The position numbers and the translations under genes are program-made. Of a stretch of DNA of 64,000 nucleotides, positions 721 through 60,324 are shown piece after piece. Origin of the DNA: Siphonodentalium dalli (taxonomy: Eukaryota > Mollusca > Scaphopoda > Gadilida > Siphonodentaliidae); contig CP136066.1 of assembly GCA_032622095.1 (NCBI GenBank), positions 98,105,319 through 98,169,318 on the forward strand. Direction: 5' to 3'. A model generated the notes under the pieces. That model was not told the DNA's origin. It was given only the letters and a program-made list of their open reading frames with translations, and did not search any database. Position 1 is the first letter of the stretch. Each line of letters opens with the position of its first letter.

Positions 721-1527
721 TACATAATACGACCTTTTTTCAAAAAGGGCGTATAAAAATGTTGGCATTGAATGAGTTACGGTAATCATAATATTGGTAA
801 ACTGTAAACACTACTGCACTACTCAATCTGCACACAATGAAAATTGTCAGATTGTGACATCAGGGTCAGGATCAATTATCGTAAATTATTCACTGGGAAG
901 TTCTCTGTAGTTCTGTCGATATCACTATATACATGTATATATCCCCAGAAATTTGATACCTCTATAATTACTCACAGAACATGTATGCTACAGCTTTAAC
1001 AAGACATACTACTCTACTAATTATCTAATGCATAAATTTATTGGCCAAGTTGGCAAAGAAATCATTGGACTAACAGCATAAAACGATAGCCTGCATCGAA
1101 ACCTCCAAGAAACAAAAGACCCTGGTCCTAAATTCGCCATGAAACGTCTTAATTTCACTTTAAATTTTCGCTCCTCAGAGAAATTTTCTATAAAATGCAA
1201 ATTCTGTTCTGATGACAAAAGCTTACAACGAGTTGCGGTAAAAATCGATTAGGTTTTGAATTTGGGATTAGAATTTTCAACATTGTTTCTCTTTATCATA
1301 TTTTATGGATGTTAGTGATGAAGAGTAATATCTAAAGAAGGGGTAGTGATATCAACACATTTTATATTTCGAAAAATGGTTTTTTGAGGCCATTTCCCCC
1401 AAACTTCGTGTTATTTTCTCGAGAATTCAGCTGAGACCCTTCAAAAAATAATAATATTAAATTAAAAAAAAAAGTTTTCTGACCCCTGTGAAGGTCACCT
1501 GTCATAGGTGACAACTAGCTTAAAATC
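721..1527. other. non-coding, nothing recognised
   Basis: A short palindrome (CCTTTTTTCAAAAAGG, about 732-747) follows the microsatellite. No exon, RNA gene or repeat relation is seen in the rest. Confidence 0.4.
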
Positions 1528-1750
1528 TACAGTAATGCCCTAAATAATCGACTCTTTGACCACAGATGAATTATGGGTGATTTTTCAGGATTTAGTCGGA
1601 TATATGGCTTGTTGCCATTCATCGGAAAGCTCTCAGTGAGAGCTTTCCAATGAATGGCAACAAGCCATATATTTCAGACTAAATCCTGAAAAATTACCCT
1701 TAATTCTGCTGTGGTTACTTAAGGAGTCGATTATTTAGGGGATTATTGTA
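1528..1750. mobile_element. palindromic TA-flanked MITE, long version
   Basis: The left end TACAGTAATGCCC and the right end GGGGATTATTGTA are imperfect inverted copies, and the element folds on itself through a GGATTTAGTC arm and a GAAAGCTCTC loop stem centred near 1637. The ends match the palindromes at 17214 and 40286-40767, but this copy carries about 85 bp of extra stem (the GGCTTGTTGCCATTCAT arms). TA at the outer edges fits a Tc1/mariner-type target duplication. No coding capacity. It lies in the probable intron downstream of the aminopeptidase exon. Confidence 0.75.
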
Positions 1751-1823
1751 CATGTCAGTGATGTCACCCAAAAACAGTGACCCGTAAACATTTTGAGTCC
1801 TTGTGAAGCCTGTTTATACATAC

Positions 1824-2484
1824 CCTTGCTCTCCATTCCCTCGAGTATACTTGGATTTGTAGAATCCTGAGAGTGATGAATCAAGAGCCCCAGTAAAACC
1901 TATGTCAATATGCAGGAGCTCTTTTGGGTCCACAGTTCTTTTTAGGCCGATATACAACTGTTCATTATCTGGATATAATAGAAGCTCACTCGCTATATTG
2001 TCACTTTTTATGTTATGATCGTCTTTACCATGCACCTTGAAATTATCGGAAATATTCAAGTCTTTCGAGTGAAGAACTATAAAATCTGTTGGAGTAATCA
2101 CTTCCACAGTGATTTCCACGGTCCCACGGAAGACAGACTCAGTCAAATTGGGATGCAAGAATATCCCGTAGGTTTGTGGCACCACACTCTTTGGTAACCG
2201 GATGTTCCGCCAAGGAAACGGCTTCCCATTTTTGGCAATATACGACTGAGTTTTTGTTTTATTTTCATTTTCATTCTTAATGATTTTGTTATTATTCTTT
2301 TCAGTTTCCTTTCCGCAAGGTGCAGAACCTCTCCCTCCGGCAAGTGCAGCAAAAGCAGCCGTTGCCACGATAACAATTCCGACAAACACAGTGATAAGAA
2401 TAGCCTTCTGTTGACTACACACAAGCTGCCTACATCTTTGTGGTATACTTGGCTCATAAACTGACTTCTTATTCCTACCATCAC
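1824..2484 (-). CDS. aminopeptidase N-like M1 metallopeptidase, N-terminal exon (partial)
   Basis: This exon encodes the start of a type II membrane ectopeptidase of family M1, which removes N-terminal residues from peptides outside the cell. Read from 2484 downwards it gives about 30 residues of basic, Cys-containing cytoplasmic tail, a membrane segment (AILITVFVGIVIVATAAFA), an Asn/Lys-rich stalk, then the M1 N-terminal beta domain: PWRNIRLPKSVVPQTYGI, a FRGTVEITVEV strand, a VLHSKDLNI motif and GFTGALDSSLSGFYKS. All match the ANPEP/ENPEP family order. The exon is bounded by TCATTTCAG at 2485-2493 (minus-strand acceptor) and by a GTATGT donor at 1823-1818. The first codon is split, so the start Met lies in an upstream exon; an ATG at 2523 is in another frame. 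The zinc site (HExxH) would be in later exons, which I do not find in the remaining 1.8 kb. The exon is open and looks functional. The exact paralogue cannot be told. Confidence 0.85.
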
Positions 2485-2980
2485 CTGAAATGATAGAACA
2501 CAGTCATATTTCAAACTTCCCATTATCCTTCGACTGCTGAAAGAATTTCCCCACTCTGTTATTTAAGAAATAACTCTTGTTTCTATTATATTTATGCAGT
2601 TATACATGTATCAATAAAGTGACTGGGCCAACTTGAAATATTTAACGAACCCCGAACCAAAGAAGCATCAAACACTAGGTGGTACATAGTCTGGTGACGA
2701 GGGCAATCTGTTTCCAGATCTGTGATGACGAGGGCCGGAGACAACTCGCCCAACAGTAAATTCGGGCCGACTTTGGGCCGACTTGACTTACGTGTCTGGG
2801 CCGACTTGTCTCAGGTGGATGACCATATAATAGTTCATATGTTTTTATGAATTTTTTTATTTGTATTTATAACAAATTATATTAAATTATCCTGATGTTT
2901 ATTATCACTTCAATATAATCCAGGTGTCACATTGTTTGAGGGAATAAAAAGACTTTGTAGATGAGACAGTATTTTTACAG
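2485..2980. other. probable intron or 5' flank of the aminopeptidase
   Basis: No coding signal. A GGGCCGACTTG-like decamer occurs three times at about 2764-2810, a local tandem of unknown meaning; a related GAGTTGTCT/GAGACAAGTC segment lies at 12058-12130. Confidence 0.35.
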
Positions 2981-26927: not shown

Positions 26928-27581
26928 TCACAACCTCCTCAACATCATTGTCGTGTGCATCATTGAGTTTTTATACCCGAAGCCCTTTTCCCAGAACATA
27001 TGTCTTTCCATCCATCCCCACTATTTGTTGTGTTCTTGTACTCTCCATTTAGATTGCTAGTGGCACATCCGGGGATATTCAGTTTGTACCACCAACCGCC
27101 ATGGCACCTGGTAGGGCATGGGTCAGCTGAACCTTGAGTTTTGTCGAAAGTGCTAAATGGCAACCCATCGTGGTAATTCATTGAGTCTCCAGAAGAAGTG
27201 GGGCTGCTGTACCCGCTAACTCGAAGAATGAAGTTGTTTGATTCGTCATCGATGCTAAAATAAGAGTATCTAACATTGGCATCTGTTCCGTTAGCTGTTT
27301 TCAGTTTGACGTACAATTCGGTAGCATTGGGCGTGATTAGTTCAAATATCGACAGCAAGCCAAGCCAGTAATTGCCATCTGTTTTGACGCAACCAAATCC
27401 GCTGACGTAATCGACCCATCCACGGTAGAAATTGACGGTTTGATCTCGACGCTGTTGCATTACGGTCCAGCCGCGCCATCAGCGGTCATGTCACAGACCA
27501 CGTTCATTTCGATTGACCCGTCTGGGCTGATCGAGTACAAGCCGTCTGTGGAGAATCCGGATTCCAGCAGAGATTTGCAAT
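26928..27581 (-). pseudogene. fibrinogen-related (FReD) domain, frameshifted
   Basis: FReD proteins are secreted lectin-like recognition molecules in invertebrate immunity. Read from 27581 down, a pyrimidine-rich TTTTGTGTCTTCTCAG acceptor precedes a domain start (DCKSLLESGFSTDGLY, then CDMTADG). After GATGGC one base is missing relative to the expected G-G-W, so the frame shifts near 27473; the next frame carries MQQRRDQTVNFYRGW, YVSGFGC and WLGL, then GDSMNYHDGLPFSTFD, GGWWYK and CATSNLNGEY. Near 26990-27018 a second disruption (a GGATGGATGG duplication region) shifts the expected tail FWEKGFGYKNS to another frame, which ends in TTMMLRR and TGA at 26930-26928. The summed length, about 218 codons, is the normal domain size. 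The usual calcium-site acidic run is replaced (DKTQGSADPC). No upstream exon is recognised. It is a pseudogene unless the indels are assembly errors. Confidence 0.85.
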
Positions 27582-44664: not shown

Positions 44665-44887
44665 AAACTGGCGAGCGTACATGTACGTACTTGTCACACA
44701 TTATTTACAGTATACGAGAAGGTGACATTTTTGGCGAGAACACTTTTTCGAGAAGCAAATCACGTGACTTCGGCAGTGCATGGTCGCGCAAAAGCGCGGA
44801 CTCAGTAACGAACCATCGCGATGAAACGAAAACAAATGTCACTTCACAACTGACGATATGTGATCATGAACAATTGTATTTTGCGTT
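44665..44887. other. left flank of the satellite
   Basis: Nothing recognised. CGAAAACAAATG at 44828 has an inverted counterpart just right of the array at about 49990-50001. Confidence 0.35.
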
Positions 44888-47800
44888 TTATAATCAGTTA
44901 CTAGGTTCATAGTAGATCAATTCATAATCAGTTATTACGTTCATAGTAGATCAGTTTATTATCAGTTATTATGTTCATAGTAGATCAATTTATAATATGT
45001 TATTAGGTTCATAGTAGATCAGTTTATAATATGTTATTAGGTTCATAGTAGATCAGTTTATAATCAGTTATTATGTTCATAGTAGATCAGTTTATAATCA
45101 GTTATTAGGTTCATAGTAGATCAGTTTATAATCAGTTATTATGTTCATAGTAGATCAATTTATAATATGTTATTAGGTTCATAGTAGATCAGTTTATAAT
45201 CAGTTATTATGTTCATAGTAGATCAGTTTATAATCAGTTATTAGGTTCATAGTAGATCAATTTATAATCAGTTATTAGGTCCATAGTAGATCAGTTTATA
45301 ATCAGTTATTAGGTTCATAGTAGATCAATTTATAATCAGTTATTAGGTTCATAGTAGATCAATTTATAATCAGTTATTAGGTTCATAGTAGATCAATTCA
45401 TAATCAGTTATTCGGTTCATAGTAGATCAGTTCATAATCAGTTATTAGGTTCATAGTAGATCAGTTTATAATCAGTTATTATGTTCATAGTAGATCAGTT
45501 TATAATCAGTTATTACGTTCATAGTAGATCAATTTATAATCATTTATTAGGTTCATAGTAGATCAGTTTATAATCAGTTATTAGGTTCATAGTAGATCAA
45601 TTCATAATCAGTTATTAGGTTCATATTAGATCAATTCATAATCAGTTATTAGGTTCATAGTAGATCAATTCATAATCAGTTATTAGGTTCATAGTAGATC
45701 AATTCATAATCAGTTATTATGTTCATAGTAGATCAATTCATAATCAGTTATTAGGTTCATAGTAGATCAATTCATAATCAGTTATTAGGTTCATAGTAGA
45801 TCAATTTATAATCAGTTATTGGGTTCATAGTAGATCAATTCATAACCGGTTATTAGGTTCAAAGTAGATCATTTCATAATCAGTTATTAGGTTCATGGTA
45901 GATCAATTCATAATCAGTTATTGGGTTCATAGAGGATTAATTTATAATCAGTTATTCGGTTCATAGTAGATAAATTCATAATCAGTTATTAGATTCATAG
46001 TAGATCAATTTATACTCAGTTATTAGGTTCATAGTAGATCAGTTTATAATCAGTTATTAGGTTCATAGTAGATCAATTTATAATCAGTTATTAGGTTCAT
46101 AGTAGATCAGTTTATAATCAGTTACTAGGTTCATAGTAGATCAGTTCATAATCAGTTATTAGGTTCATAGTAGATCAGTTTATAATCAGTTATTATGTTC
46201 ATAGTAGATCAGTTTATAATCAGTTATTAGGTTCATAGTAGATAAGTTTATAATCAGTTATTAGGATCATAGTAGATCAGTTTATAATCAGTTATTAGGT
46301 TCATAGTAGATCAGTTTATAATCAGTTACTAGGTTCATAGTAGATCAGTTTATAATCAGTTATTAGGTTCATAGTAGATCAGTTTATAATCAGTTATTAG
46401 GTTCATAGTAGATCAGTTTATAATCAGTTATTATGTTCATAGTAGATCAATTCATAATCAGTTATTATGTTCATAGTAGATCAATTCATAATCAGTTATT
46501 AGGTTCATAGTAGATCAGTTTATAATCAGTTATTAGGTCCATAGTAGATCAGTTTATAATCAGTTATTAGGTTCATAGTAGATCAGTTTATAATCAGTTA
46601 TTAGGTTCATAGTAGATCAGTTTATTATCAGTTATTAGATTCATAGTAGATCAATTTATAATCAGTTATTATGTTCATAGTAGATCAATTCATAATCAGT
46701 TACTAGGTTCATAGTAGATCAATTTATAATCAGTTATTAGGTTCATAGTAGATCAGTTTATAATCAGTTACTAGGTTCATAGTAGATCAGTTTATAATCA
46801 TTTATTAGGTTCATAGTAGATCAGTTTATAATCAGTTATTAGATTCATAGTAGATCAATTTTTAATCAGTTATTATGTTCATAGTAGATCAATTCATAAT
46901 CAGTTACTAGGTTCATAGTAGATCAATTTATAATCAGTTATTAGGTTCATAGTAGATCAGTTTATTATCAGTTATTAGGTTCATAGTAGATCAGTTCATA
47001 ATCAGTTATTAGGTTCATAGTAGATCAGTTTATAATCAGTTATTAGGTTCATAGTAGATCAGTTTATAATCAGTAATTAGGTTCATAGTAGATCAGTTTA
47101 TAATCATTTATTAGGTTCATAGTAGATCAGTTTATAATCAGTTATTAGGTTCATAGTAGATCAATTCATAATCAGTTATTAGGTTCATATTAGATCAATT
47201 CATAATCAGTTATTAGGTTCATAGTAGATCAATTCATAATCAGTTATTAGGTTCATAGTAGATCAATTCATAATCAGTTATTATGTTCATAGTAGATCAA
47301 TTCATAATCAGTTATTAGGTTCATAGTAGATCAATTCATAATCAGTTATTAGGTTCATAGTAGATCAATTTATAATCAGTTATTGGGTTCATAGTAGATC
47401 AATTCATAACCGGTTATTATGTTCAAAGTAGATCATTTCATAATCAGTTATTAGGTTCATGGTAGATCAATTCATAATCAGTTATTGGGTTCATAGAGGA
47501 TTAATTTATAATCAGTTATTCGGTTCATAGTAGATAAATTCATAATCAGTTATTAGATTCATAGTAGATCAATTTATAATCAGTTATTATGTTCATAGTA
47601 GATCAATTCATAATCAGTTACTAGGTTCATAGTAGATCAATTTATAATCAGTTATTAGGTTTATAGTAGATCAATTCATAATAAGTTATTAGGTTCATAG
47701 GAGATAAATTCATAATCAGTTAGTAGGTTCATAGTAGATCAATTCATAATCATATATAAGGTTCATAGTAGATCAGTTCATAATCAGTTATTAGATTCAT

Positions 47801-49956
47801 AGTAGATCAATCTACAATCAGTTACTAGGTTCATAGGAGATCAATTTATAATCAGTTATTAGGTTTATAGTAGATCAATTCATAATAAGTTATTAGGTTC
47901 ATAGGAGATCAATTCATAATCAGTTATTAGGTTCATAGTAGATCAATTCATAATCAGTTATTACGTTCATAGTAGATCAATCTACAATCAGTTATTATGT
48001 TCATAGTAGATCAGTTTATAATCAGTTATTAGGTTCATAGTAGATCAGTTTATAATCAGTTATTAGGTTCATAGTAGATCAGTTTATAATCAGTTATTAT
48101 GTTCATAGTAGATCTGTTTATAATCAGTTATTAGGTTCATAGTAGATCAGTTTATAATCAGTTATTAGGTTCATAGTAGATCAGTTTATAATCAGTTATT
48201 AGGTTCATAGTAGATCAGTTTATAATCAGTTATTAGGTTCATAGTAGATCAGTTTATAATCAGTTATTATGTTCATAGTAGATCAGTTTATAATCAGTTA
48301 TTAGGTTCATAGTAGATCAGTTTATAATCAGTTATTAGGTTCATAGTAGATCAATTTATAATCAGTTATTATGTTCATAGTAGATCAGTTTATAATATGT
48401 TATTATGTTCATAGTAGATCAGTTTATAATCAGTTATTAGGTTCATAGTAGATCAGTTTATAATCAGTTATTAGGTTCATAGTAGATCAGTTTATAATCA
48501 GTTATTAGGTTCATAGTAGATCAGTTTATAATCAGTTATTAGGTTCATAGTAGATCAGTTTATAATCAGTTATTAGGTTCATAGTAGATCAGTTTATAAT
48601 CAGTTATTAGGTTCATAGTAGATCAGTTTATTATCAGTTATTAGGTTCATAGTAGATCAGTTTATAATCAGTTATTAGGTTCATAGTAGATCAGTTTATA
48701 ATCAGTTATTATGTTCATAGTAGATCAGTTTATAATCAGTTATTAGGTTCATAGTAGATCAGTTTATAATCAGTTATTAGGTTCATAGTAGATCAGTTTA
48801 TAATCAGTTATTAGGTTCATAGTAGATCAGTTTATAATCAGTTATTAGGTTCATAGTAGATCAGTTTATAATCAGTTATTATGTTCATAGTAGATCAATT
48901 TATAATCAGTTATTACGTTCATAGTAGATCAATTTATAATCAGTTATTAGGTTCATAGTAGATCAATTTATAATATGTTATTATGTTCATAGTAGATCAA
49001 TTTATAATCAGTTATTATGTTCATAGTAGATCAATTTATAATGTTATTAGGTTCATAGTAGATCAATTTATAATCAGTTATTAGGTTCATAGTAGATCAA
49101 TTTATAATCAATTACATTAGGTTCATAGTAGATCAATTCATAATCAGTTAGTATGTTCATAGTAGATCAGTTTATAATCAGTTATTAGGTTCATAGTAGA
49201 TCAGTTTATAATAAGTTATTAGGTTCATAGTAGATCAATTTATACTCAGTTATTAGGTCCATAGTAGATCAGTTTATAATCAGTTATTAGGTTCATAGTA
49301 GATCAGTTTATAATCAGTTATTAGGTTCATAGTAGATCAGTTTATTATCAGTTATTAGGTTCATAGTAGATCAGTTTATTATCAGTTATTAGGTTCATAG
49401 TAGATCAGTTTATAATCAGTTATTAGGTTCATAGTAGATCAGTTTATTATCAGTTATTAGGTTCATAGTAGATCAGTTTATTATCAGTTATTAGGTTCAT
49501 AGTAGATCAGTTTATTATCAGTTATTAGGTTCATAGTAGATCAGTTTATAATCAGTTATTAGGTTCATAGTAGATCAGTTTATTATCAGTTATTAGGTTC
49601 ATAGTAGATCAGTTTATTATCAGTTATTAGGTTCATAGTAGATCAGTTTATAATCAGTTATTAGGTTCATAGTAGATCAGTTTATTATCAGTTATTAGGT
49701 TCATAGTAGATCAGTTTATAATCAGTTATTAGGTTCATAGTAGATCAATTTATAATCAGTTATTAGGTTCATAGTAGATCAGTTTATTATCAGTTATTAG
49801 GTTCATAGTAGATCAGTTTATAATCAGTTATTAGGTTCATAGTAGATCAGTTTATTATCAGTTATTAGGTTCATAGTAGATCAATTTATAAAAAGTTATT
49901 AGGTTCATAGTAGATCAATTTATAATCAGTTATTAGGTTCACAGTATATCAATTTA
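44888..49956 (+). repeat. 34-bp satellite array, about 149 copies
   Basis: The unit reads ATAATCAGTTATTAGG, then TTCATAGTAGATCAGTTT, 34 bp in all, with common variants AATT(C/T) for AGTTT, TATG or TACG for TAGG, and ATATGTT for ATCAGTT. Every frame on both strands meets stop codons, so it is not coding. Nearly all units keep one GATC. Some units differ in length by one to three bases (for example near 49033 and 49107). A rare-variant block (CATAACCGGTTATT, AGAGGATTAATTT, AGATAAATTC) occurs at 45841-45999 and again at 47405-47563, exactly 1564 bp (46 units) apart, showing a large internal duplication. Confidence 0.98.
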
Positions 49957-54662: not shown

Positions 54663-55705
54663 ACGTTTTCGCTAACGTTGTGTCTGTGTGCAGCGGAGTC
54701 ATTCCTTATGCATGAGAACAGAAACTGGCTGATCCAGTCGCGCCTTTGTATTATCTTAGTCAAAAGTGTAGGCCCAAGTTGAATGTCACAAACTGTCCAA
54801 AATATACCGGTTGGTGTGGTGAATTATCTAGTTATATGTGTCAGGACGCCAATGAATTAAATCTATAACTGGCCAGTATGTGTATCTTTGTTTGATATAG
54901 CGGGTGATACAGTTGTAGTGTCCATGGTGGTACATTTGCAGAAGAAAGTGGGGAACAGATATGTGGTATATAAATCACACAAACAAAATACACAAGATCA
55001 CTATTTTTAGGCAAGGCGACGTTAACCGACGAATAGTTTCTATAGTAATATGCAAGCTGGTATTTAATCATAGCAAATCATGCACCGGTCCGTTTTGAGT
55101 TGTCAAACATTGTTCTCCATTAGGCAGGAGTGATGTGTGATGCGAATGTTTGCACACTATCACTCTTACCACCGCGGGGATTTCCCTAGCTATCCCTTCA
55201 GAAAGGCGCGTTTGTTCCTGAAAACCCACCAGATGAATAATAGACCAGTTCAATGCACACTTTCACAACTGAGTGGGAGTATCCATTTAGTATGCATGTA
55301 AAGAGGTTAGGTGACAATACATGTCATGTTCTTCTGTACTACCTGTACCGTACGACTCAACGTCTCAACATCGCCTTACAATGTATTCGCCTGACTCCAG
55401 ATTGATCTAATGTAGTATTGATCCTTTGGAGCAGTACGTCGCATTATCACTTTAATACAGAAACATTTTGTATTGTGTTATGATAATAATACTCCTCTTG
55501 TTTTCTTGTATTTTTTATAATCTCCATTATGTTTCGTTCTCCTGTAGTCATGTACTGCTTATACGCCGTTCTGTTTAACTTAATATCCTACATAATCGCC
55601 TTAGTTGTCGACGGGTTTTTATGTTTCGCAAGTCGTTTTATTGTTATCGTGGTACATGCTTTTTGATAGTGTCCTCTATCATTGTCAATCTACTTGTGTG
55701 CAATC
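54663..55705. other. non-coding, nothing recognised
   Basis: Region 3' of the zinc-finger array; no exon or repeat seen. Confidence 0.3.
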
Positions 55706-57273
55706 TTATGTACGGTCATGCGACTGTTCTGCACACACCTCGCACGGATAAGGACGATCGCCGGTGTGTGTTCTTTTATGAACGGTGGCTTGAGATAAAA
55801 TAGTGAATGATTTCTCACACACATCGCACTGATACTGACGTGTGAATTTGTGTGGATTTGCATATGTAAGGTCAGAGTTCCCGAATGTGTAAATGCGTTA
55901 AAGCATATCTCACATTCAAATGATCGAGTCCCAGTTTTCTTGTGTTTAGTCCGGTTAGAAGACCGGGTGAAAGGTTTCCAAACAGATATACACTGATATT
56001 GGCGATCTCCTGCGTGGACTCTCTTATGTATTATCAGGTTAGTATTCTCAGCGAATGACTTCTCACACATATCACACGGATACGGACGCTCTCCCGTGTA
56101 GGTCCTCTTATGTATTATCAGGTTAGTATTCTCAGCGAATGACTTCTCACACATATCACACGGATACGGACGCTCTCCCGTGTAGGTCCTCTTATGTATT
56201 ATCAGGTTAGTATTCTCAGCGAATGACTTCTCACACATATCACACGGATACGGACGCTCTCCCGTGTAGGTCCTCTTATGTATTATCAGGTTAGTATTCT
56301 CAGCGAATGACTTCTCACACATATCACACGGATACGGACGCTCTCCCGTGTAGGTCCTCTTATGTATTATCAGGTTAGTATTCTCAGCGAATGACTTCTC
56401 ACACATATCACACGGATACGGACGCTCTCCCGTGTAGGTCCTCCTATGTATTATCAGGTTAGTATTCTCAGCGAATGACTTCTCACACATATCACACGGA
56501 TACGGACGCTCTCCCGTGTAGGTCCTCTTATGTATTATCAGGTTAGTATTCTCAGCGAATGACTTCTCACACATATCACACGGATACGGACGCTCTCCCG
56601 TGTAGGTCCTCTTATGTATTATCAGGTTAGTATTCTCAGCGAATGACTTCTCACACATATCACACGGATACGGACGCTCTCCCGTGTAGGTCCTCTTGTG
56701 TATTATCAGGTTAGTATTCTCAGCGAATGACTTCTCACACATATCACACGGATACGGACGCTCTCCCGTGTAGGTCCTCTTATGTATTATCAGGTTAGTA
56801 TTCTCAGCGAATTACTTCTCACACATATCACACGGATACGGACGCTCTCCCGTGTAGGTCCTCTTATGTATTATCAGGTTAGTATTCTCAGCGAATGACT
56901 TCTCACACATATCACACGGATACGGACGCTCTCCCGTGTAGGTCCTCTTATGTATTATCAGGTTAGTATTCTCAGCGAATGACTTCTCACACATATCACA
57001 CGGATACGGACGCTCTCCCGTGTAGGTCCTCTTATGTATTATCAGGTTAGTATTCTCAGCGAATGACTTCTCACACATATCACACGGATACGGACGCTCT
57101 CCCGTGTAGGTCCTCTTATGTATTATCAGGTTAGTATTCTCAGCGAATGACTTCTCACACATATCACACGGATACGGACGCTCTCCCGTGTAGGTCCTCT
57201 TATGTCAGATGTTTTCTCTGGGTGAATAATTGCTCACACACATCGCACCCATACGGACGATCACTGGTGTGGA
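55706..57273 (-). pseudogene. C2H2 zinc-finger array with homogenised 84-bp units
   Basis: C2H2 fingers normally bind DNA or RNA through Cys2-His2 zinc knuckles. Read from 57273 down there is one divergent finger (CDVCEQLFTQRKHL), then 14 nearly identical 28-residue units (CDMCEKSFAENTNLIIHKR), then QYQCISVWKPFTRSSN, FECEICFNAFTHSGTLTLHM and a last finger QYQCDVCEKSFTILSQ ending in TAA at 55708-55706. In 13 of the 14 units the final His is Tyr (HKRTYTGER); only the last unit has HKRVH. Breaks: about 5 bases missing after the first finger (near 57205), TCA to TAA in one unit (56812-56814), Val in place of the second Cys in the following finger, a missing last His after KHKKTG, and an extra CA near 55840 that shifts the last finger. 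No KRAB, BTB or PRDM module or splice-linked upstream exon is visible. The units behave as a minisatellite; I regard the locus as a pseudogene. Confidence 0.85.
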
Positions 57274-57320: not shown

Positions 57321-57365
57321 CAGTCAGATGCTCGTAGCCCGTTTATATATAACCATGGGTATATG
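57321..57365 (+). repeat. 45-bp inverted repeat, left copy
   Basis: CAGTCAGATGCTCGTAGCCC followed by 25 more bases is an exact inverted copy of 60280-60324, 3 kb away. It begins about 50 bp beyond the first zinc finger. No clear target duplication. Confidence 0.95.
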
Positions 57366-57654
57366 CGAAAATACACAACGAAAACACACTCCACAGTTTG
57401 GATCGATAAGTCTTGCCCTGTGTATTTTGATGTTGAATTTTTTGACAATCGGTCTTCCGTATCATTTCTACAACACAATTATCGTCTTACCTGCAGCACG
57501 ACTTTATCGTGTGATCGTCAAGGAAGCGTTTTATTTCAGAGTATGGCTAATACATTGCCGCCGGTGAAGTGTATTGTCGGATAAGAAACAAATAAGCATA
57601 TGCCGAGGGCAGAAACTAAAGTTGCGAGAGGCACCCCTGGTTGAGTGTGGGATA

Positions 57655-58605
57655 TTTGGCACTCGAGACTTGGTTAGAGGGTTTTCGTTGGGGTGGTCTC
57701 CACCTTGGAATTTCCAACTGCACCCCACCCAATTGAACCACACCAAACTCATAAGTTTGCGTAAGTCAATTTACACCCCCCTGGATTTTTCCCAAATGTT
57801 CCCTCACAGACTACCAGATGGTAGACTATTCAAAATGAAACAGAGAGTTGTTATACCATGGAACAATTTACCAGAGATGATTGTTTCATCCGTCAACCTG
57901 ACGCAGTTCAAAGAACTGTTTGACTCATATCTCTATAGCCAGAAATGTGAGTACGATGAGTGATTTTAACATATTGTGTTTATGATTACGATTTATATCC
58001 ATGTTTCAAATCGGAACAAAAAGTCGGATGACTTGTTTCGAAATAAATGATACTGATACTGATACTGTGGCCACTTGTCGTGCGGGGGGGGGGGGGGTGA
58101 AAAAGATGGCTCGGCCCAGTATGAGATTAAAACATCTTAACATCTAGTGGTATAACACCACACAAATTTACACCCCGATCTATTTTTTCTTAAATTAATT
58201 AGCGAGTAACTACTGGCAAGGACACAGAACACACGGGTCGGCCGATGGTTAGGCCCGATGTGAGAACATTTTTGAAATATGAACATGAACATTTGACAAT
58301 CCTATAGCATAGACCGGCCTCAAGTTTTCCAATTCTGGGAAATTATTAACCTGACACTCACCCATAGGTTTCAAAATTGCCAACTGATGGCCATTTGAGT
58401 CCATAATTTTGCAAATGAAAGGGAAATATGCAAATGTTGGTCTAAAAACAACGAATTCGTCACTAAGAAAGTGTTGGAAAATCAAACTACGAGAACAATT
58501 TCAACCTAATTTTGGTGTGAATTTTCCAATTAATTTTGCTCGGGGTATTAGGTATGACTACAATTGGGGGTAAGACCCCTGCATAACCACCCCTGTCGGC
58601 AAGTC
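57655..58605 (-). mobile_element. hAT-like element, old copy 3, split by a LINE
   Basis: The left part (GGTTTTCGTTGGGGTGGTCT, TTTCCAACTGCACCCC) and the right part (58070-58605, with CCAACTGATGGCCATTT and GTGTTGGAAAATCAAACTA and the end CACCCCTGTCGGCAAGTCCC) match the two halves of the 58946-59970 copy. The middle is interrupted by a retrotransposon 3' end. Confidence 0.6.
57775..58066 (+). mobile_element. LINE retrotransposon 3' end (reverse transcriptase C-terminus)
   Basis: Before the stop at 57961-57963 the frame encodes KMKQRVVIPWNNLPEMIVSS and VNLTQFKELFDSYL, matching the R-V-V-x-x-W-N-x-L-P ... F-K-x-x-L-D tail common to reverse transcriptases of Jockey/CR1/L2-like LINEs. A short 3' UTR then ends in AATAAATGATACTGATACTG, a GATACT tandem typical of such 3' ends. 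The rest of the element is missing, as in normal 5' truncation on insertion; it cannot be active. The clade is not determinable from this tail. It is inserted in an older hAT-like copy. Confidence 0.75.
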
Positions 58606-58937
58606 CCTACTTGACACCCTATTCTAAATAATCGATACTAAGTTATGTTGGGTGGCACGGGGGGGGGGGGGGGGGGGGTCAGGGGCTACATCCCAGCCCT
58701 GTCGGGAGTCATAGCCATCCCCCGTCGGTGAGTTATGTAATTGTCAACCCGCCAGGGGATATCCTGGTGCCACCCCTGTTTGAAATCATATAAAACTTTT
58801 AAAGAAGACCACATATTGAACAGAAATCAGAGGGAAATGAGCTCTCGTAACCACAAAAGTGCACTAAAGACATCCCAATAAATCCAAATTAGATGCAACC
58901 GCATATTGTATATATATGGCATCGTTCTGTTTGCCTC
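58606..58937. other. spacer with a G20 run
   Basis: GGTGGCACGG leads into 20 G (58659-58678). CAGCCCTGTCGGGAGT and CCACCCCTGTTTG words suggest more hAT-family debris. No gene. Confidence 0.35.
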
Positions 58938-58945
58938 TCTATATC

Positions 58946-59970
58946 CAGGGACGTGGCTATATGGTTTCCGTTAGGGGGTGTCCACCATGGAAAATTCCAA
59001 CTGCACCCCCTTGAATCAGAATCACCCCAAACATAAATTCCATTTGCACCACCCCCCCTTACATCAGTGCTCACGCCTAATATCCTATATATATTAAAAA
59101 AAAACCTATATTCCAGGTTTGAAAATTCAGATAGTTGAACCTGAACAATTGCATAAATCATAACATCTAATGGTCTAACTGCAGACAAATTCCCACGGCT
59201 ACGGGCAAGAGGCGGGGACACACCGGGTTGACCATGGTTCTTCGGCCCGGTGTGAGAAAATTTTTAAAACTATAAAAGAAAATATTAAATCCTAGCATGC
59301 ATCTAGACTGACCTCAATTGAACCTTTCCTGGTGTTGGAAATTTCAAACCTCATACTCCCCCTCAGGTTGAAAAACTCTCCAACTGATGACTATTTCAGT
59401 CCACAAGTTTGACCAAATGAAGTAAAATATTGTTTTGCAGTTTTGTATTGGCCACGGGGGAATGGACAATGACAACGATAGTCGGCAATTTTTTTTTAAT
59501 CTGAACAGGAAAATCTCAAAATCCTAGCATCTAGACTAGCCTCAAACCTTCCTAGAGTTGGACATTTCAAACCTGACACCCCCACTTAGGTTGGAAAATT
59601 CCAATGACAATATTTACCAAATGCATGACAATATTGTTTTCTTAAATTAACTAGCATTTTTTTTGACTGGCCACGGGGGAGGGACCAGGACACAAACTGT
59701 CCCAAGTGTTGGAAATTTCCAACCTGCCACCCTCCTAAGGTTGGAAATTTCCGACTGATGACCATTTCAGTCCAAAATATTTACCAAAAATAGGAAAATA
59801 TGGAAATAATTTGTTTGAAAATCAAACTACAATAACATTTTCAACTTAATGTTGGTGTGAAATTTCCAACTAATGTTTTGGCAAGTATGAAATTTCCAAC
59901 TGTTGAACATTTTGACCAAAGTTGGGGGAGGTGAGACATCCCAACCCCCACCCCTGTCGCCACGTCTCTG
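58946..59970 (-). mobile_element. hAT-like non-autonomous element, copy 4 with perfect 8-bp duplication
   Basis: The ends CAGGGACGTGGC (58946) and GCCACGTCTCTG (ending 59970) are inverted copies, and TCTATATC is repeated exactly outside them (58938-58945, 59971-59978). An 8-bp duplication and CAG ends are the hallmark of hAT transposition. The 1025-bp interior carries the GTTGGAAATTTCCAAC and CGGCCCGGTGTGAGAAAATT blocks of the family and no transposase. Confidence 0.9.
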
Positions 59971-60279
59971 TCTATATCATATAAATACTTTTTCTAAAAA
60001 CCCTTAAACCAACTCGACGTGCGATTTCCCTGCGCTCCTGTTGCGCATATTCTAGTATAAAAAGTGCGTCTATTTCAGACAAAGTTCAAACAGTAAATGT
60101 GACCAGACAAGACATAGAAACCGCTAATCTCATATTACCAATCTGACAACACCAGTCGAACATGATTACCTTTCAAAGCAATAACACCGGGCACCATGTT
60201 ACGGACAACCACAGGCACGCACACCATGGATAAATACACGGTGAAAAGAACGGCGTTTTTTTTGTACGGTTATATCTGA

Positions 60280-60324
60280 CATATACCCATGGTTATATAT
60301 AAACGGGCTACGAGCATCTGACTG
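60280..60324 (-). repeat. 45-bp inverted repeat, right copy
   Basis: Exact inverted partner of 57321-57365; the interval encloses the LINE tail and two hAT-like copies. Confidence 0.95.

Follow-up and report, generated by a model that had tools for sequence, protein, structure and literature searches.

The window examined here, a stretch of 64,000 nucleotides from the scaphopod Siphonodentalium dalli, holds a tandem array of near-identical C2H2-type zinc fingers in which tyrosine takes the place of the fourth zinc ligand. This raises the question of whether the array encodes fingers with altered metal binding or is a dead gene that has expanded as a minisatellite. The window lies at 98.1 Mb on contig 6 of the searched genome, which amounts to 2.23 Gb in nine contigs. 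The region singled out by the initial annotation, 55706-57273, takes in the array and the broken fingers that flank it. The array and its final ligand codon are located as follows:

56020-57195, minus strand: array of 14 tandem 84-bp units (script split and Tandem Repeats Finder)
56014-56016, minus strand: CAC (His) codon beyond the copied unit, giving the fourth ligand of the last near-identical finger

Tandem Repeats Finder reported an 84-bp unit in 14.1 copies at 56021-57205, with 99% matches and 0% indels, and with 14 head-to-tail copies chance is not at issue. Each unit codes TYTGERPYPCDMCEKSFAENTNLIIHKR. When the array was split by script, 10 of the 14 units equalled the majority sequence and the other 4 differed from it by one base each, giving 4 changed bases per 1176: unit 5 has a TAA stop, unit 9 has Arg for Lys, and units 6 and 14 differ silently, the latter in its final base at the border with the flank. 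The copied unit begins just past the KR of a finger and extends to that of the following finger, and the TAC at its head is the fourth ligand of the preceding finger. This TAC (GTA on the plus strand) is found at the identical codon in all 14 units.

Reading the array finger by finger, we found Cys, Cys and His as ligands 1-3 in all 14 complete near-identical fingers. The fourth ligand was Tyr, instead of the His or Cys of a C2H2 finger, in 13 of them (one of which contains the stop, and another HRR instead of HKR), while the last finger, which ends HKRVH, has His. The fourteenth TAC serves as the fourth ligand of a broken finger, finger 0, in front of the array. The count of 13 Tyr fingers among 14 given in the initial annotation was thus confirmed. 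Its proposal that one defect had been spread by amplification of the unit, and not by separate mutations, was likewise upheld by the presence of TAC in 14 of 14 otherwise near-identical 84-mers and by the last finger, which ends outside the copied unit and is still His. Since the fourth ligand of the founder finger lies outside the unit and has remained His, a single CAC-to-TAC change followed by copying accounts for the pattern; separate Tyr mutations in each finger were rejected, as the units are otherwise nearly identical. The PF00096 profile matched two open stretches at 169.2 and 75.3 bits, against a curated cut-off of 25.2. We also considered an open frame opposite the array and rejected it, as there was a stop in every unit (first 90 residues of each plus-strand frame); no plus-strand open stretch of at least 80 codons overlapped the array.

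The fingers on either side of the array are damaged, and so is one of its units:

57190-57247, minus strand: finger 0, broken, in front of the array
56812-56814, minus strand: in-frame TAA stop in unit 5, a Ser codon in the other units
55690-56013, minus strand: remains of fingers 15-18, ending in TAG at 55690

The CxxC half of finger 0 is out of frame with the array, the joint lacks five bases compared with the corresponding stretch of the unit, and a TGA stop at 57205-57207, within this finger, lies in the frame of the array. Finger 15 has lost its CxxC spacing, as well as its fourth ligand together with part of the linker; the letters of this finger also suggest to us two indels that compensate each other and a loss of 6 bases. 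The frame shifts from finger 16 to finger 17 and once more within finger 18, ahead of the TAG. The net frame changes in the flanking fingers come to three. With the TAA in unit 5 and the frame broken on both sides, no open frame runs across the array, but 373 codons, internal ATG codons included, are open after the unit 5 stop. In contrast to these disabling lesions, there are relatives whose arrays are long and open. A regular-expression scan of both strands of the window, which would miss strongly decayed remains, found 16 finger-like stretches, none of them outside 55690-57247. The broken state, the uniform array, the stop and the place of the Tyr codon with respect to the copied unit are all read directly from the sequence.

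We consider it very probable that this locus is a fragment of a dead C2H2 gene, and that the 14 copies stem from a recent expansion of one 84-bp unit as a non-coding minisatellite. The initial annotation, which mentioned neither the stop nor the frameshifts nor the mobile element, had left two alternatives standing, a dead gene expanding in this way and a working finger of the C2H-Y type. The first is strongly favoured by the stop, the three net frame changes and the ligands lost from the flanks, and the second finds no support in the sequence. We favour the minisatellite because the stop in unit 5 occurs in an array with so few changes overall, and because the flanks combine frame changes with the loss of ligands from finger 15. 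A further argument comes from the sequence upstream:

57321-60324, strand not assigned: dispersed element with terminal inverted repeats of ~45 bp

This element starts ~75 bp upstream of the first finger and cuts off any upstream part of the gene. We looked for the rest of the gene beyond it and found no finger-like match in the scan of the whole window; the presence of the element from 57321, together with the confinement of finger-like matches to the stretch scanned above, also argues for a dead gene. At least 9 places elsewhere in the genome cover at least 2423 of the 2480 bp queried, at 93-96% identity (best 40 of 10048 candidates). Duplications of 3 bp at the ends matched in 4 of the 5 other copies examined and mismatched in one, and the window copy has no end duplication. 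An open stretch of 131 codons within the element, 57568-57963, had no Pfam match.

Could the element have killed the gene? A comparison of six copies gave a private change of 0.51% for the window copy (15 of 2941 columns), which seems little when set against the number of lesions in the flanking fingers. The element is therefore an unlikely cause of gene death and probably arrived late. Inside the array there are three private changes (0.26%), against 6.0 expected from the element (P = 0.15), so that the array and the element cannot be ordered in time. These figures go against a tidy account of gene death by the element followed by growth of the array.

The indels bear on the relative age of the array and the decay of its flanks. 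There are 3-5 indels in ~400 bp of flanking fingers and none in the 1176 bp of the array. At the flank rate, calculated with a flank length of 420 bp, 8 to 14 indels would be expected in the array, and the probability of finding none is 2e-4 to 8e-7. This difference implies that the decay predates the array or that the array has since been homogenised, which again supports amplification within a dead gene. The three private changes are one stop, one missense and one silent, where random change would be expected to give 4% stop, 73% missense and 23% silent; three events say little about selection, and the unit 5 stop has persisted without being removed.

Of the other explanations, the one that fares best is that the gene was still working when the unit was amplified: the Tyr array came first and made the protein useless, and the frameshifts accumulated afterwards. 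In its favour, the unit itself shows one lesion only, and the relative dating of death and amplification is indirect; but several indels in the flanks set against none in an array three times as long mean that most of the decay predates the array in its present form, unless older changes have been erased by continual homogenisation. We regard amplification in a working gene as unlikely.

Much less probable still is a C2H-Y finger in use, in which the array is translated (or the 3' part of it, starting at an internal ATG past the stop), the zinc site is completed by the Tyr, a neighbouring residue or water, and the identical fingers recognise a simple repeat. Such use would be consistent with a unit length that is a multiple of three, with the otherwise regular finger and with the long open stretch downstream of the stop. 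The case for a dead gene is also weakened because the unit, Tyr aside, is well formed, scores as C2H2 and is stop-free in 13 of 14 copies, and because the open codons with their internal ATGs make partial translation formally possible. Against use of the finger stand the unit 5 stop, the out-of-frame finger 0, the broken fingers behind the array and the element that lies where the upstream part would be. In addition, the four residues that we take, by the usual convention, to contact DNA are the same in all units, and 0 of the 3 private changes fall at them. Equally improbable is an assembly artefact, in which collapse or stretching of the uniform array produced the Tyr or the number of units: assembly is difficult for tandem arrays of such uniformity, and the unit number may contain an error, but units 5, 6 and 9 bear different private changes, both ends join unique flanks, and a consensus error is an unlikely source of Tyr in every unit, since the same wrong base in all 14 is not the usual form of such an error.

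For a dead gene with a growing minisatellite, we propose the following course, and here we infer the order of events, the exchange mechanism and the absence of expression. A poly-finger gene of the large C2H2 family would have become stranded at this place, lost its function and gained frameshifts and ligand losses. One CAC-to-TAC change would then have struck finger 0 at its fourth ligand. This finger and the one after it have similar ends, both containing ACATAAGAG, which may have mispaired, duplicating the intervening 84 bp with the Tyr codon included; the same sequence is common to finger 0 and the end of the array, and is a plausible site of the first misalignment. Further unequal exchange or slippage could have brought the array to 14 units and maintained its uniformity, and the three private changes, the stop among them, would since have gathered unopposed. 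Zinc binding by Tyr has no role in this explanation.

We searched the genome with the array end and the downstream flank as query, and scored the best 40 of 1130 candidates. The window itself was recovered at 93-100% identity and the other matches listed at 66-88%. The 88% match was to a short stretch of the downstream flank, and the non-window matches that cover the unit were at most 79% identical, among the matches listed (best 40 of 1130 candidates). Within that scope the unit is not found at many places, and we rejected the possibility that it is a dispersed satellite; by sequence the array appears to be confined to a single locus. Most of the finger matches listed were in clusters on contigs 2, 3, 6 (15-18 Mb) and 7, and the isolation of the window locus from these clusters further argues for a dead gene.

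The codon pattern HKR-T-Tyr-TG[E/D] occurs 28 times genome-wide. Thirteen of these are in the window, where the fourteenth Tyr unit reads HRR and lies outside the pattern, 11 are in a dispersed family and have identical letters, and 4 are singles on contig 3. Two of the singles (L024 and L026) are in arrays that are largely regular by translation, another is at the end of the array at L027, and one (L025) is in a broken array. With Asn in the place of the ligand (HKR-T-Asn), the linker pattern of the dispersed family, there were 548 occurrences, about as many as the 556 of the canonical HKRTH form, although these patterns, which specify the codons on either side of the ligand, capture just a subset of fingers.

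The dispersed ligand-dead family is more unusual than the window array, and falls outside the locus described in the initial annotation. It was analysed at seven loci (L017-L023, on contigs 1, 4, 8 and 9) that had been picked for carrying the Tyr pattern, and units within 24 mismatches of a probe unit were counted. The majority unit, of HKRTN type and 84 bp long, reads PYERDVYHKEFSHIWSLTMHKRTNTGDR. Among the 126 units over the seven loci, none had His as fourth ligand, 11 had the second Cys, 42 the first Cys and 123 the first His; the loci are mutual copies over long stretches at ~90-98% identity, and the 126 units are not independent. Selection was assessed unit by unit in five arrays. The ten pairs had 1-6 silent among 9-17 changes and ratios of 0.23 to 2.06, where the neutral silent fraction is ~0.25, but the counts are small and the pairs non-independent. 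A poor gapped alignment of all seven arrays gave a pooled ratio of 0.41. From these comparisons we read the family as probably being under no clear constraint. A ~142-bp repeat array adjoins the finger repeat in L017, L018 and L023, and L018 and L021 have units in both orientations. The strand opposite the finger frame is open in L023 at 1489-2454 (plus strand, 321 codons) and in L021 at 1987-2643 (minus strand, 218 codons), where it gives a hydrophobic-looking 28-residue repeat, probably a by-product of the stop-free unit.

Is the uniformity of an array related to the loss of its ligands? We compared 41 sources, the window and 40 loci, on both strands, excluding the overlapping L001-L016 and the element copies L037-L042. 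A run was defined as at least 4 fingers at exact 84-bp spacing, which yielded 47 runs, several from one locus; L017-L023 do not appear among them, as their units fail the finger filter. The window was the most uniform of the 47 (0.976; fourth-ligand His in 1 of 14), followed by L027 (0.962; second Cys in 0 of 5 and fourth ligand in 0 of 5) and L051 (0.863; fourth ligand in 5 of 12). The fourth, L029 (0.842), retains the fourth ligand in 14 of 14 and is a counter-example. The remaining finger runs had uniformities of 0.46-0.78. A link between uniformity and ligand loss is suggestive but not established, as the window and L027 were sampled for Tyr, which leaves L051, chosen through the His pattern, as the one independent case. 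The two parallel arrays are:

1537-2040, locus L027 (contig 3, 296.68 Mb): six near-identical dead units ending an otherwise open array
L051 (contig 1, 112.86 Mb), minus strand: uniform finger array

The dead units of L027 lack both the second Cys and the fourth His, and TAG is present in the first, second and last of the six. In L051, 7 of 12 units carry Arg in place of the fourth-ligand His, and there is a change of frame further upstream in the array. These parallel cases also lead us to favour a dead-gene minisatellite in the window. More tentatively, and at somewhat less than even chances, ligand loss together with gene death may be a recurrent route to the birth of satellites in this genome, taken separately at the window, L027 and L051, and once giving rise to a dispersed family. 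The built-in 84-bp period of dying C2H2 arrays would let single ligand-dead units multiply.

The window array can be compared with several known systems. The ordinary C2H2 poly-finger genes of the same genome (nine loci, L028-L036) share its linker style and 84-bp period, and are ~66-79% identical to it in DNA over stretches covering the unit. Unlike the window array, the majority remain open over long stretches and have kept their ligands: of 147 fingers read, 141 have His as the fourth ligand. The nearest solved relatives of a four-unit stretch, by overall sequence alone, include ZNF568, Aart, PRDM9 and CTCF. Mouse PRDM9 is reported to contain a coding minisatellite of 84-bp fingers, in open arrays that vary at the contact positions (PMC3890296). 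The window array resembles it in its 84-bp finger unit and high unit uniformity (14 tandem units with 4 changes per 1176 bp), and presumably in gaining units as minisatellites do, but its frame is broken and there is no variation at the contact positions. A disrupted state of PRDM9 itself is known from canids (PMC3213085).

A second comparison is with MMSAT4 of mouse. These finger arrays are reported to have long been filed as satellite, with units that occur genome-wide and mostly in KRAB finger genes (PMC5363842); the same work, on MMSAT4 and KZFP-related genetic units, describes how coding potential was lost and how genes or pseudogenes came to have single-finger triplets duplicated in tandem as many as 4 times. 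In contrast to MMSAT4 as described there, the window array is at a single locus, among the matches listed, and has 14 copies and one shared ligand defect. A survey of titles and abstract openings, among the papers listed, found no amplified ligand-dead finger array. The window array adds one more example of processes already known, and is most likely idle repeat DNA, not a new kind of metal-binding protein.

Counts of zinc-finger genes depend largely on motif and profile searches. Amplified fingers with defective ligands still score as C2H2, and could inflate such counts or pass for unusual metal-binding proteins. The main value of the locus lies in the parallel cases in the same genome, which offer a chance to watch a coding repeat become satellite DNA.

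Elsewhere in the window, an Rfam search over its whole length gave 0 matches at the gathering score. Two open stretches on the minus strand, one at 1814-2503 matching Peptidase_M1_N and one at 26960-27478 matching Fibrinogen_C, are neighbouring genes or exons unrelated to the zinc fingers. A 34-bp tandem repeat occupies 44887-49956, in ~149 copies with 93% matches.
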